Shown here one piece after another: positions 5,297-43,108 of a stretch of 64,000 nt of DNA. Position 1 is the stretch's first letter; the number at the start of each line of letters is the position of its first letter. The translations under genes were made by a program, and so were the position numbers. Location: assembly GCA_029959295.1 (NCBI GenBank), contig JASCOH010000002.1:186001-250000 (forward strand). Reading direction: 5' to 3'. The notes below the pieces were generated by a model that was not told the DNA's origin, did not search any database, and was given only the letters and a program-made list of their open reading frames with translations. The DNA comes from Flavobacteriaceae bacterium PS02334 (GTDB lineage: Bacteria > Bacteroidota > Bacteroidia > Flavobacteriales > Flavobacteriaceae).

Positions 5297-6802
5297 TTAC
5301 TCTATAATTAGTTTTAAGTGGTTGACCGTTTCAGCAGTACTAATTTTTAAAATATAACCGCCTGATTTTAAATTAGAAATATTTAGTTCAGTGCCATTAA
5401 CTTCTGTAGTCTCTATTAAAGTGCCGCTTAGGCTGATCACGGCAACGGTCTTCACTTCTTTAGAAAAAACAATTTTATCTTTAGCTGGATTTGGAGAAAA
5501 ATGAAGCGAATTTCCTGTTTTAGAAGACTCTTCAACATCCAAAGGAGCAGCCGACATTTTTACAACCCACACATCACTACCGCCGCGATTTGATGTAGCA
5601 TTACCATTGCTTGATTTTGAGAAGCCAGCAATTACATAACCCCCATCAGCTGTTTTTTGTAGCTTGCTTGCACCATCATCTAAAGTACCACCAAGACAAG
5701 TTTGCCATTGCAAGACACCAAGACTGCTTATTTTTAAAAGCCAAACATCTTGCCCTCCATGGCTGTAGCCAATATTGCCACTGTAATAAGAATTGGCAAT
5801 TCCGGTAACAATATACCCGCCATCAGAAGTCTGCTCGATGCTTTTTGCAATGTCGAAAAAACCATCGCCACCATAGCTTTTATTCCATTCAATTGTGCCA
5901 ATACTGTTTACTTTTATGATTCCGAAATTATGTCCGGTTGCATTTCCAATTCTTGTCACCACATCGCCAGCCATGATATAGCCTCCGTCTGATGTCTGTT
6001 TTACGCTGAAAGCGGTATCAGTATCGCCATACCTTTTTTCCCACTGTACATTCCCAGAACTATCTAGTTTTACAAGCCAGTAGCCATAAACGTTATACTC
6101 ACCTGCGGCAATATAACCTCCGTCTGCCGTCTGCTCAATGCTGTAGAAACCATCTATTGATGTGCCTCCAAGGCATTTTTGCCATTCAATAGCGCCGGTG
6201 CTGCTGAGCTTCACGATCCAGCCGTCGATTCCTCCGTGAAAACCAGTAATATCGCCGTTTATTGGGCGAATCACGCCGTCATAAGAATAGCTGTTTCCGG
6301 CAACAATATAGCCACCATCAAGAGTCTGCTTAATCGAATAGGCAGTTTCTTTATCATCGCCGCCATATTTTTTCTGCCACAGGATAGCGCCTGTCGCATC
6401 GAGCTTTAAAATCCAATAATCTTTATCGCCTTGTGAGTTGGTAATATCGCCATCAGTAGAATAAGAATAGCCAGCCACGATATAGCCTCCATCTGTTGTC
6501 TGAACAATGCTATAAGCTTGATCGTCAGAAGTTCCTCCATAGGTTTTTTGCCATTCGACGGTGCCGGTGGCGTCAAGCTTGACAATCCAATAATCGTCGC
6601 CTCCTTTATTTAAGGTTACATCGCCGTTGGCGGAATTTGTATAGCCAGCCAAAATATAGCCTCCATCTGAAGTCTGCTGAATGCTATTTGCATTTTCGTT
6701 TCCTGTGCCTCCAAGAGATTTTTGCCATTGGATTGTAAGGTTTTGGGCATTACCATTAGTTACGCTTAGCAAAAGTGTGGCTATAAAAAATATTCTTTTC
6801 AT
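5297..6802 (-). CDS. Secreted seven-repeat beta-propeller-like protein with T9SS type A sorting domain
   Basis: About 501 residues from the Met of MKRIFFIATLLL, chosen because a signal peptide ending NGNAQN starts there; the longest frame adds seven residues. Seven repeats of about 45-65 residues share the core SIxQTxDGGYIxAGxS, then WxxKLxxxGxxxWQKxxGG. This suggests one closed seven-bladed propeller. The C-terminal 75 residues (SPNPAKDKIVF through a final LKLIIE) form a type A T9SS sorting domain, so the protein is probably exported to the cell surface or medium. Ligand and function are unknown. Upstream lies the 22-bp repeat array, with no clear promoter. Confidence 0.8.
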   Translation of the reverse strand: MKRIFFIATLLLSVTNGNAQNLTIQWQKSLGGTGNENANSIQQTSDGGYILAGYTNSANGDVTLNKGGDDYWIVKLDATGTVEWQKTYGGTSDDQAYSIVQTTDGGYIVAGYSYSTDGDITNSQGDKDYWILKLDATGAILWQKKYGGDDKETAYSIKQTLDGGYIVAGNSYSYDGVIRPINGDITGFHGGIDGWIVKLSSTGAIEWQKCLGGTSIDGFYSIEQTADGGYIAAGEYNVYGYWLVKLDSSGNVQWEKRYGDTDTAFSVKQTSDGGYIMAGDVVTRIGNATGHNFGIIKVNSIGTIEWNKSYGGDGFFDIAKSIEQTSDGGYIVTGIANSYYSGNIGYSHGGQDVWLLKISSLGVLQWQTCLGGTLDDGASKLQKTADGGYVIAGFSKSSNGNATSNRGGSDVWVVKMSAAPLDVEESSKTGNSLHFSPNPAKDKIVFSKEVKTVAVISLSGTLIETTEVNGTELNISNLKSGGYILKISTAETVNHLKLIIE

Positions 6803-7000
6803 TGGGGATGGTTTTAGTGCCATTTTTTAAAAAAATAAAGGCTTGGCTGTAATTGGCACCGAAGGTATGAAAAAAAATAACTTCTATTGAATCAGTTGTT
6901 TATGATTTGGTTAATACTGCCTTGAATGGTTTTGACAGAAACTCTAATCTGTAAAGGCGGAACTCTTAATTTACAAAAGTCCTAGCATTGACAAGGGCAA

Positions 7001-7216
7001 AACCCAACCGTTTACCCCAAGGGACCCAACCGTTTACGTCTGGTGGCCTAACCGGTTACCCTAACAGACCCAACCGGTTAGGTTACCCAACCCAACCAGT
7101 TACCCCAAGGGACCCAACCGTTTACGCCTGACAACCCAACCGGTTACCCCTAAGTACCCAACCGGTTGGGTCAAGAACCTAACCAGCTTACGTCTCTAGG
7201 GGTAAACGGTTGGGTT
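7001..7216. repeat. Array of ten 22-bp units with perfect 18-bp terminal inverted repeats
   Basis: The core AACC(G/A)GTT or a close variant recurs with its AACC starting at 7006, 7028, 7050, 7072, 7094, 7116, 7138, 7160 and 7181, and in inverted form near 7203. The period is therefore 22 bp with one 21-bp step. Two tandem 88-bp super-units, 7003-7090 and 7091-7178, are roughly 80% identical, and a third is cut short. The first unit AACCCAACCGTTTACCCC (7001-7018) is the exact inverted repeat of the last, GGGGTAAACGGTTGGGTT (7199-7216). A 16-bp perfect palindrome ACCCAACCGGTTGGGT sits at 7156-7171. The array begins 9 bp past the ABC transporter stop and is visibly richer in G and C than its surroundings. 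The rest of the gap (6803-7000) shows nothing recognisable. Confidence 0.9.
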
Positions 7217-7225
7217 ATTTTGCAT

Positions 7226-8974
7226 TTAGCTTTCCACCACAAATTGAGAGTAGTACAAATTCTTATAAAAACCTTCATCCTTGTTGATTAATTGGTAGTG
7301 TGAGCCTTGCTCGACCACGTTTCCTTTTTCCATGACAATGATTTTGTCTGCGTTGACGATGGTGGCGAGACGGTGCGCAATTACGATAGAAGTTCTTCCT
7401 TTCGTAATCGTTTCAGTAGCTCTCTGTATCAAATCTTCAGAGTAAGAATCGATCGAAGAAGTGGCTTCATCCAGAATCAAAATACTCGGATTGCTGACAA
7501 AAGCCCTCAAGAAAGCAATCAATTGGCGTTGCCCAGAAGACAGCATCACGCCGCGTTCTTTCACGTTGTAGTCATAGCCGTGAGGCAGTGTCATGATGAA
7601 GTCGTGCACGCCGATTTCTTTGGCGGCTTTGATTACTTGCTCACGAGAAATTTCTGGATTTTCAAGCGTAATATTGTTGTGGATCGTATCTGCAAACAGG
7701 AAAACGTCTTGCAAAACCACGGCAATCTGGGTTCTCAAGCTTTCCAGCGTAAAGTCTCTGATGTCAGTTTTGTCAATCAAAATTTCTCCTGAATTGATTT
7801 CATAAAAGCGGTTCAAGAGGTTGATGATCGTTGATTTTCCGGCTCCGGTTGCGCCGACAATGGCAATCGTTTCGCCTTCTTTTACGTCGATGTTGATGCC
7901 TTTTAAAACTTCTTCCTTATCAGTATAGCTGAAATGCACGTTCTTGAATTCGATGTTTCCGTGGAAGGTGTGGGCGATTTTTGTGCCTTTATTTTGGATG
8001 TGGTCTTGGGTGTCTAAAACCTCAAAAACACGGTTGGCAGCAATCATTCCCATCTGCATCTCGTTGAATTTATCCGCAATTTGGCGCAACGGATTGTAGA
8101 GCATTCCGATGAACATAGTGTAGGAAAACAAGTCTCCGAAAGTCGTAGAACCGTTTTGTGCGATGATATTCATCCCTCCATACCAAACCACCAAACCAAG
8201 CGAAACCGAGGAAACGATATCAGCAATCGGAAAGAAAATCGAGTTGTACCAAACGTTTTTGATCCACGCTTTTTTGTGCTTGTCGTTGATGACCTTGAAT
8301 TTTTCATATTCGATATCTTCCCTTGAAAAAAGCTGTACGATTTTCATCCCCGTGACTCTTTCTTGCACGAAAGTATTCAGGTTTGAAATCTGGGTTCTCA
8401 CTTCTTCAAAAGCAACTTTCATCTTCTTTTGGAAAACTCTCGTGGCGATTACCAAAATTGGCATGGCGCACATCACGATCAGGGTTAATTTCCAGTTCAT
8501 GTAGAACATAAAAAGAAGCACTACAATCATCTTTAACAAGTCGCTGATGATCATGAAAAGGCCCTGGCTGAAGATTTTTGAGATGGATTCGATATCAAAA
8601 ACAGGGCGTGTCACTAATTTTCCGACTGGCTCATTGTCAAAATATTTCATCTTGAAATTCATCAGGTGGTTGAAAAGCTTGATTCGAATGTCGCGGATGA
8701 TGTCCTGGCCCAGATAATTCGCCAGGTAGACGAAATAAAACTGCGAAACGACCTCCATGATCAAGACGCCGCCCATCAATAAAATATAATACAAAAGACC
8801 CAGCGAGTCTTTAGTTTCAATATAGCCGTCAACGGTCTGCTTCAGCAAATAAGGGCGAAGCGCCGCAAAAACCGACAATAAAACCGCAAAGATAATCACC
8901 CCATAATAGCGGGCTTTATACGGTTTTGTGTATTCCATTATTCTTTTAAATACGGATGTATCTGATGCTTTCAT
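7226..8974 (-). CDS. ABC transporter, fused permease and ATPase (MsbA/LmrA-like exporter)
   Basis: 582-residue half-transporter. Residues about 20-310 hold six membrane helices of the type I exporter domain. The ATPase has Walker A GATGAGKST near residue 373, signature LSSGQRQ near 478, Walker B ILILDEATSSID near 498 and the H-loop IVIAHRLAT near 528. It would act as a homodimer in the inner membrane; the substrate (lipid or drug) is not evident. It starts 27 bp after the truA stop on the same strand and is probably in the same operon. The unusual 22-bp array sits directly at its 3' end. Confidence 0.9.
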   Translation of the reverse strand: MKASDTSVFKRIMEYTKPYKARYYGVIIFAVLLSVFAALRPYLLKQTVDGYIETKDSLGLLYYILLMGGVLIMEVVSQFYFVYLANYLGQDIIRDIRIKLFNHLMNFKMKYFDNEPVGKLVTRPVFDIESISKIFSQGLFMIISDLLKMIVVLLFMFYMNWKLTLIVMCAMPILVIATRVFQKKMKVAFEEVRTQISNLNTFVQERVTGMKIVQLFSREDIEYEKFKVINDKHKKAWIKNVWYNSIFFPIADIVSSVSLGLVVWYGGMNIIAQNGSTTFGDLFSYTMFIGMLYNPLRQIADKFNEMQMGMIAANRVFEVLDTQDHIQNKGTKIAHTFHGNIEFKNVHFSYTDKEEVLKGINIDVKEGETIAIVGATGAGKSTIINLLNRFYEINSGEILIDKTDIRDFTLESLRTQIAVVLQDVFLFADTIHNNITLENPEISREQVIKAAKEIGVHDFIMTLPHGYDYNVKERGVMLSSGQRQLIAFLRAFVSNPSILILDEATSSIDSYSEDLIQRATETITKGRTSIVIAHRLATIVNADKIIVMEKGNVVEQGSHYQLINKDEGFYKNLYYSQFVVES

Positions 8975-35261: not shown

Positions 35262-35306
35262 TGTTGATGTGAAAGTTTAAAAGAAGCCTGAAAGATTGAA
35301 ATTTTA

Positions 35307-35380
35307 ACCCTGATGGTTGCGACTATCCTTTTATTCAGTTTTTCACTGGATAAAAGATAGTGCATCCAGCAGGAACATGG
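35307..35380 (+). ncRNA. Candidate structured RNA element (copy 1)
   Basis: ACCCTGAT at the left edge, a hairpin CTATCCTTTTATTCAGT against ACTGGATAAAAGATAG with a short T-rich loop, and CCAGCAGGAACA at the right. A related element lies on the minus strand at 42959-43049. Both are downstream of genes and read in the same direction. I recall such CCCTGAT...ATCCTTTT...AAAAGAT...AGCAGGAA elements from flavobacterial genomes, possibly the Flavo-1 RNA motif, but cannot verify this here. Confidence 0.5.
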
Positions 35381-42815: not shown

Positions 42816-42958
42816 AAAATGTTTAAGGTTCTTAATTCTTTAGATTCGAAAGATAGTAAAGGCGAATGAAAATTCAAAGAAAAAGCAACATTTAAAGTCA
42901 TTTTTCTAAGATAATCCTATTTTTTAGAAGCGAATAGTCGTTTCTTTTTCAGGAAAAG

Positions 42959-43049
42959 TAGTTCCTGCTTTCCGTTCCAATCTTTTGTGGTGAAGAATCC
43001 CGAAGCTTCGGGACACCACAAAAGGATTTCCGCTGCAATCAGGGCTAGA
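42959..43049 (-). ncRNA. Candidate structured RNA element (copy 2)
   Basis: Read on the minus strand: GCCCTGATTGCAGCGGAA, then ATCCTTTTGTGGTG pairing with CACCACAAAAGAT around an inner 16-bp perfect palindrome TCCCGAAGCTTCGGGA (42998-43013), then GGAAAGCAGGAACTA. It matches copy 1 at 35307-35380 in order and in the outer boxes (CCCTGAT, ATCCTTTT, AAAAGAT, AGCAGGAAC). It lies about 60 bp downstream of the RusA-like gene and in its direction. The remaining 293-bp gap shows nothing else. Confidence 0.55.
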
Positions 43050-43108
43050 GAGCCGTTCATTTTTTTTCAAGATTGTCGAGTTGCTTGTGTGTAAACTTTT
43101 CGAAATAT

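Follow-up and report, generated by a model that had tools for sequence, protein, structure and literature searches.

A regular array of ten dyad cores in a Flavobacteriaceae genome and kindred arrays in a second species

Introduction

A 64,000-nucleotide stretch of the genome of Flavobacteriaceae bacterium PS02334 (hereafter the window; the genome is called G000) holds a regular array of ten dyad cores at positions 7001–7216, and the reality of this array is confirmed. We consider that it is best explained as a dispersed, fixed-length and phased protein-binding DNA element that is copied whole, a reading to which we give a probability of roughly one half. On this best explanation the element is non-coding, about 190–216 bp long and composed of nine or ten dyad sites with the consensus AC[CG][CT]AA-N4-TT[AG][CG]GT, which lie 21–22 bp apart and on about one face of the helix. 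Three observations carry this reading. Whole arrays have been copied, with unit order and spacers common to the copies; the copies are intergenic, have unrelated neighbours and occur in two species, whose centres are of CCGG type and of AATT type; and the cores change more slowly than the spacers. That the cores change slowly between fast spacers points to the core as the part that is recognised, and we infer a binding protein from this; a mechanism that copies the element is likewise presumed. Each dyad is a putative site of a dimeric DNA-binding protein that would load cooperatively along the array, and the two-turn step would place the dyads on one face. The array would then act at the DNA level, either in nucleoid folding or as the feature that the copying enzyme recognises, and it would not be an operator of the next gene.

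Structure of the array

The whole array (7001–7216, no strand assigned) was delimited from the sequence, repeat analysis and core offsets. It is bounded by two 18-bp terminal inverted repeats, at 7001–7018 (plus strand, holding unit 1) and 7199–7216 (minus strand, holding unit 10 in inverted orientation); both reading and repeat analysis place them, and by reading they are exact, as an earlier note on this DNA had stated. The arms of the inverted repeat run on imperfectly to 57 nt at 72%. Units 1–8, with 16-bp cores, follow one another on the plus strand in strict 22-bp steps (7002–7171; starts at 7002, 7024, 7046, 7068, 7090, 7112, 7134 and 7156). Unit 9 (7177–7192, plus) has one base inserted between its half-sites, and unit 10 (7200–7215, minus) is unit 1 in inverted copy, both by reading and core offsets. 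The core offsets of 3, 25, 47, 69, 91, 113, 135, 157, 178 and 201 correspond to seven steps of 22, one of 21 and one of 23; by reading, the 21 and the following 23 around unit 9 are due to its one extra base. The earlier count of ten cores is thus retained, while the earlier list of steps, all of 22 with one of 21, has to be amended by the 23. Similarly the cores are dyads throughout, but the full AACCGGTT that had been named as their type is present in only some of them. The 22-bp step is close to two helical turns, as was said, and not exactly so, two turns being 21.0 bp at 10.5 bp per turn.

Tandem Repeats Finder reports periods of 22, 44 and 88 for the array, with the best score (249) for 88. 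When periodicity was scanned across the 64-kb window in 216-base windows every 20 bases at lags of 10–59, the array ranked first with an autocorrelation of 0.66 at lag 44 and 0.60 at lag 22, against at most 0.56 elsewhere. Its GC content of 0.546 against 0.356 for the window agrees with the description of it as GC-rich for the region. Every one of the six frames is interrupted by stop codons, and a unit of 22 bp does not divide into whole codons; the array is therefore non-coding, as had been supposed, and a coding repeat at this place is ruled out by the stops.

Further copies in the same genome

G000 comprises 4.59 Mb in 69 contigs, and two further copies of the array were found in it. The first, C11a (L014:8175-8375), has nine units and is 75% identical to the window array over 171 aligned bases; the second, C11b (L013:8223-8420, minus strand), also has nine units and is 81% identical to it over 145 aligned bases. 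The three arrays align unit by unit and by reading all of them have terminal inverted units, weaker in C11a and C11b. Spacers of the same index resemble each other more than spacers of other index: 0.76 vs 0.36 between C11a and C11b (0 of 5000 permutations), 0.53 vs 0.36 between the window array and C11b (permutation p 0.028), and 0.51 vs 0.37 between the window array and C11a, which is borderline (p 0.062). Since same-index spacers are the most alike, we conclude that the whole arrays have a common ancestry.

The differences between the copies are concentrated outside the cores. When the core columns were defined by the window array alone, C11a and C11b disagreed at 6 of 108 positions inside the cores and at 18 of 90 outside them (Fisher p 0.002). 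When C11a and C11b defined the columns, the window array departed from C11a at 1 of 56 positions inside the cores and 47 of 120 outside; against C11b the figures were 1 of 56 and 46 of 120. The flanks of C11a and C11b are also alike (86% over 283 bp), and one of these two may therefore be a plain segmental duplication, whereas the window array has only the array itself in common with them.

The left flank of both C11a and C11b is a terminator-like hairpin, which has two more matches on contig C66 with no dyad array following. All four places of this hairpin (L177:3241-3323, L177:3864-3928 and the two left flanks) lie near genes for VGIGT-type secreted proteins, and the two on C66 have a 21-bp array (L177:3420-3626) between them. 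Beside C11b there are three tandem paralogous genes of 581–595 aa (L013:2596-7870), and the one of them that was scanned has TPR and AraC-type HTH domains.

Kindred arrays in a related genome

A blastn search with the window array gave no match in the other 149 genomes searched. The pair pattern CCYAACC..TT had 20 matches in G000 and isolated matches in 12 of 397 other genomes of the genus, and a three-unit pattern scanned over 395 genomes of the phylum was found in G000 and eight others, where it fell in isolated matches, simple repeats or 22-bp tandem repeats of another sequence (G659 and G725). An autocorrelation scan that uses no motif, run over twenty 20-kb stretches of eight relatives, revealed an array of 43-bp period in the genome G010, and when read, this array (L198:16715-16902) turned out to be built of the same dyad, its centres being AATT. 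Both blastn and the pair pattern had covered G010 and missed it because of these centres. The case in which the array would be found only here, named in the earlier note as one that would speak against its proposal, is thus not what this sequence-blind scan turned up.

Twenty extra stretches of G010 gave three more, making four dyad arrays in 460 kb. Those at L198:16715-16902, L289:9283-9470 and L296:865-1052 have nine units each in alternating steps of 21 and 22, and the one at L299:6476-6750 has 13; nine is thus the unit number of five arrays, next to 10 in the window. The three nine-unit copies have common borders, and their spacers agree at 0.56–0.82 for the same index vs 0.26–0.28 for other indices. 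The stretch of L296 also has one run of three units, at the level of the controls. Runs of at least three dyad units were absent from 60 stretches of G000 (the known arrays lie outside these) and from 17 stretches of seven other relatives.

The dyad consensus used for scanning G010 and the ABC exporter loci described below was drawn up after L198 had been seen. Sequences reversed as a control gave three-unit runs and also one ten-unit run, in an ordinary 21-bp tandem array (L276), and for this reason a run alone is not proof of kinship. The kinship of the G010 arrays therefore rests on a shared 16-mer, on the unit number and on mixed units. The 16-mer ACCTAAAATTTTACCC is common to unit 6 of C11a and C11b, which is an AATT unit, and to unit 4 of L198. 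By eye, the spacers CAAGG, TAACA and CACATG recur in both species. In a set of 35 units, which left out units 9 and 10 of the window array and all units of L289, L296 and L299, AA-N4-TT is present in 35 of 35, the G010 units having been placed by a score that favours AA-N4-TT; the centres are CCGG-like in G000 and AATT-like in G010. Of these 35 units, 27 have complementary bases at the central pair 8-9, vs 17.0 expected from column shuffling. This excess rests on few events, because it is lost on shuffling within arrays (p 0.13 for pair 8-9 and 0.18 for both central pairs).

No viral contig had the dyad consensus at a 22- or 21-bp step. An origin from plasmid or phage was also considered and set aside: there was no blastn match, and the one pattern match in each of two viral contigs was read as chance.

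Alternative explanations

The dispersal of the array also suits a MITE or foldback-type transposon, in which the dyads would be sites of a transposase encoded elsewhere. MITEs are short, non-coding and dispersed and have inverted ends. The array is likewise short, non-coding and dispersed with terminal inverted repeats, and to this may be added the inverted terminal units, seen by reading, of all three arrays of G000, the common borders in G010 and an element of the same build, with four 22-bp units and TTATTGTACC-type ends, that recurs throughout the rumen MAG Tb.RUG.90. Its two ends, however, vary independently of one another from copy to copy, which does not favour such a transposon. Unlike in MITEs, no target-site duplication was seen by eye at seven arrays (the borders of those in G000 being uncertain), in line with the earlier note, and neither a binding protein nor a mobilising enzyme was found for the arrays. 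What holds of the non-autonomous mobile element originally suggested is therefore the dispersal of whole arrays, but neither duplication nor enzyme was seen to go with it, and we regard a transposon of this kind as possible but doubtful.

A plain satellite, that is a tandem repeat of constant length (20–23 nt) which grew in place by slippage or unequal exchange and whose palindrome has no role, appears unlikely, although G000 is rich in repeats that could be so described. Sixty 20-kb stretches of it (1.2 Mb) contained 11 arrays of 21/42-bp period outside long ORFs, among which L184 fills an ORF of 101 aa and L235 is weak, and two further clusters of this period inside a long ORF. Their units are unrelated to one another in sequence. 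Eleven arrays (with L143 and L177 and without L251 and L252) were searched by blast and had no match elsewhere in 0.92 Mb. A first control of 20 stretches from eight genomes of relatives had no array of 20–22 or 42 bp, but in later stretches of G010 three were seen at a looser threshold, two of them clear and one weak (L292, L301 and L304), so that G000 is rich in two-turn arrays but not unique. Several of the 21-bp arrays may be decayed coding heptads: one frame each of L190, L218, L231 and L177 translates into coiled-coil-like heptads interrupted by stops, and with a 21-bp period some frame stays open by chance.

A 2020 paper by Subirana and Messeguer reportedly treats a class of 22/44-nt repeats. 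The nearest published kind of sequence is the bacterial tandem repeat of constant length, 20–23 nt, together with short interspersed repeats. PMC8161180 (Subirana and Messeguer) describes repeats of constant 20–21 nt (20–23 in many groups) or 52 nt, in several families per genome, whose sequence is species-specific with short conserved sequences; in the 52-nt repeats the reverse of the conserved sequences is often found in the same repeat. The paper gives the function of these repeats as not known and proposes proteins that polymerise on DNA, or transcribed RNAs; an earlier survey of bacterial tandem repeats is PMC6749651. The present array resembles these satellites in having at least four units, a constant unit length, no coding capacity and a conserved short core with variable bases, and in the several families of equal unit length in G000. 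It is unlike them in its dyad core, its inverted last unit, its apparently almost fixed unit number and its dispersal as a whole element with borders. Nine units in C11a, C11b and three G010 copies, with common borders and collinear spacers, point to block copying and not to growth in place. Moreover, 33 arrays including that of the window together show no consensus dyad symmetry beyond chance (4.03 vs 4.04), and no motif common to their consensus units exceeds the shuffled maximum (CTGCAA in 5 of 33 vs 0.2 expected; shuffled maximum 4.9).

It is rather improbable that the array acts as RNA, folding after transcription into a long stem that serves as a terminator, a sponge or a processed RNA. 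On either strand, seven Flavobacterium-type arrays do fold much more strongly than their shuffled versions (z from -3.6 to -12.0), but palindromic repeats fold by themselves. The spacers show no general mirror complementarity (the best uncorrected p per array is 0.025 for C11b and 0.08–0.28 for the other five), covariation is not above shuffles (3 vs 2.6 pairs, in only 3 sequences), and no Rfam model matches at the array at gathering scores.

Genomic context

The window array lies between two genes on the minus strand. An ABC exporter of MsbA type (7226–8974), with Pfam ABC domains above cut-off and its best NCBIfam model below that model's own cut-off, has its stop 10 bp from the array; a 508-aa protein (5297–6823), whose T9SS sorting domain scores above cut-off and whose delta-60/SBBP-like repeats score below it, has its start 178 bp away. 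These genes are context and lie outside the element. Elsewhere in the window there are two Flavo-1 RNA genes (Rfam RF01705), at 42957–43050 (minus) and 35302–35380 (plus).

It had been suggested that the array is a special 3' UTR of the ABC exporter, and this we reject. At 29 ABC loci of relatives, taken with some 1500 flanking bases wherever the contig was long enough, there was no dyad run of at least four units; two loci (L121 and L123) have three-unit runs, which is the level of most reversed-sequence controls, and the kindred arrays adjoin other genes. An operator or enhancer array of an adjacent gene, either the 508-aa T9SS protein or the ABC exporter, is very improbable. The window array, C11a and C11b all sit between co-directional genes and upstream of a co-directional gene, but this orientation says little because only 41 of 312 gaps in G000 are convergent, and the lack of arrays in its convergent gaps is not significant. 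With ORFs called by script, two of the four G010 arrays (L198 and L289) lie between convergent genes and two (L296 and L299) between co-directional genes. The neighbouring genes differ from site to site, and this, together with the two copies between convergent genes, makes an operator or a 3' UTR of the adjacent gene unlikely. Of the operator array for a DNA-binding protein that was first proposed, protein binding survives as the best inference from slow cores and fast spacers, while the regulation of a neighbour does not.

Protein families beside 21-bp arrays

Two of the 21-bp arrays in G000 begin no more than about 30 bp beyond the stop codons of paralogous genes of 245 aa, which belong to a family with a 'GHAKN' N-terminus for which no Pfam model reaches cut-off. 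Loci of this family with a 21/42-bp array just downstream of the stop include L190:6804-7750 and L231:10290-11281, and the loci L258–L287 belong to the same survey. A search of 150 genomes gave 29 matches in 19 genomes. Among the loci of relatives, counted without the partial matches L275, L276, L282 and L283, 20 of 22 have an array that starts at most 500 bp from the stop, with a period of 21 in 19 and of 20 in one; five of the 20 are weak (L260, L261, L266, L279 and L281; 0.58–0.61), and the remaining two of the 22 have a 14-bp array (L263) or none (L267). Three of the 22 (L266, L279 and L281) carry a stop inside the match, and in the partial matches L276 and L283 a 21-bp array lies on the other side. 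An array is also present at all three loci of G000 and at the single relative's locus that comes from an IMG/VR contig (L287). The arrays of these loci are unrelated in sequence. Other genes served as controls at the same score thresholds: in relatives 264 were covered and two had an array, both lying next to the L198 dyad array, and in G000 it was 5 of 812. The linkage compared with the 264 control genes has a Fisher p of about 2e-26, shared ancestry not being corrected for. Ten of the 29 control ABC loci have some array, one of them of 21-bp and one of 44-bp period.

A second family (300–311 aa) has a 21-bp array 114–235 bp upstream of the start in all three copies seen in the DNA fetched (L184:11263-12665, L230:7051-8290 and L218:18890-19997); L184 has a CarboxypepD_reg C-terminus, L230 no Pfam match, and L218 is cut by the end of the stretch. 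A third family (173 aa), for which no Pfam model reaches cut-off, has its start at a distance of 87 bp from C11a. None of the three families adjoins the window array, and the tie of the dyad element to them, which comes from C11a, may be chance. One may imagine that Bacteroidota possess a family of two-turn (21–22 bp) arrays which function together with unnamed proteins of their own. The 245-aa family would then have its array immediately 3' of the gene, families 2 and 3 would have one immediately 5', and the free dyad elements would be scattered members of this machinery. The step would be fixed and the sequence free; if true, the proteins would sense the helical phase of an array and not its base sequence. 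We think this wider scheme rather unlikely.

Bacterial satellites of 20–23 nt are without known function, and the present case offers three handles on them. The dispersed element has common borders and a defined dyad, and its core could serve as bait in a hunt for its protein; the difference in centres, CCGG in one species and AATT in the other, allows the two to be compared; and a protein family that is physically tied to 21-bp arrays of unrelated sequence would make array function directly testable.

Comparison with other repeat systems

CRISPR arrays have repeats of about 24–47 bp and unique spacers; here the total period is 22 bp and spacers are kept between loci, and CRISPR is excluded. 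TIGR-Tas systems have a Tas protein with a Nop domain, and since PF01798 was not found in G000 this candidate was dropped as well. Iteron origins and transposon-end arrays such as those of R6K gamma and Tn7 consist of tandem protein sites of about 22 bp. The array resembles them in its tandem, here putative, sites of about 22 bp and differs in its near-palindromic sites and chromosomal copies, and no gene of such a system was noticed beside the arrays. REP and BIME sequences are intergenic, dispersed and palindromic short interspersed repeats. The array is likewise intergenic, dispersed and palindromic, but unlike them it has nine or ten dyads per element in strict helical phase (see also the RepRanger paper, PMC12306157). 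In titles and abstract beginnings among the papers listed on palindromic, tandem and interspersed repeats of Flavobacterium and Bacteroidetes no description of the element was noticed, and such silence is not proof of absence.

Look-alikes in Tb.RUG.90, Treponema Po218, Hymenobacter and Algicola were rejected as kin. Only a likeness of build is claimed for them, because the pattern scan had selected for the 22-bp step and for the searched letters. Tb.RUG.90 and its rumen kin (L040–L073) have an element of about 95 bp with four 22-bp dyad units, whose TTATTGTACC- or TTATCTCC-type ends combine independently; there are 94 pattern matches in Tb.RUG.90, and 22 distinct copies were printed, a few of them from other MAGs. 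In Treponema Po218_bin6 (L056, L136 and L137) long 22-bp arrays of the unit types ACCAACCAGTTACTCC and AGTTAGGACA lie near contig ends.
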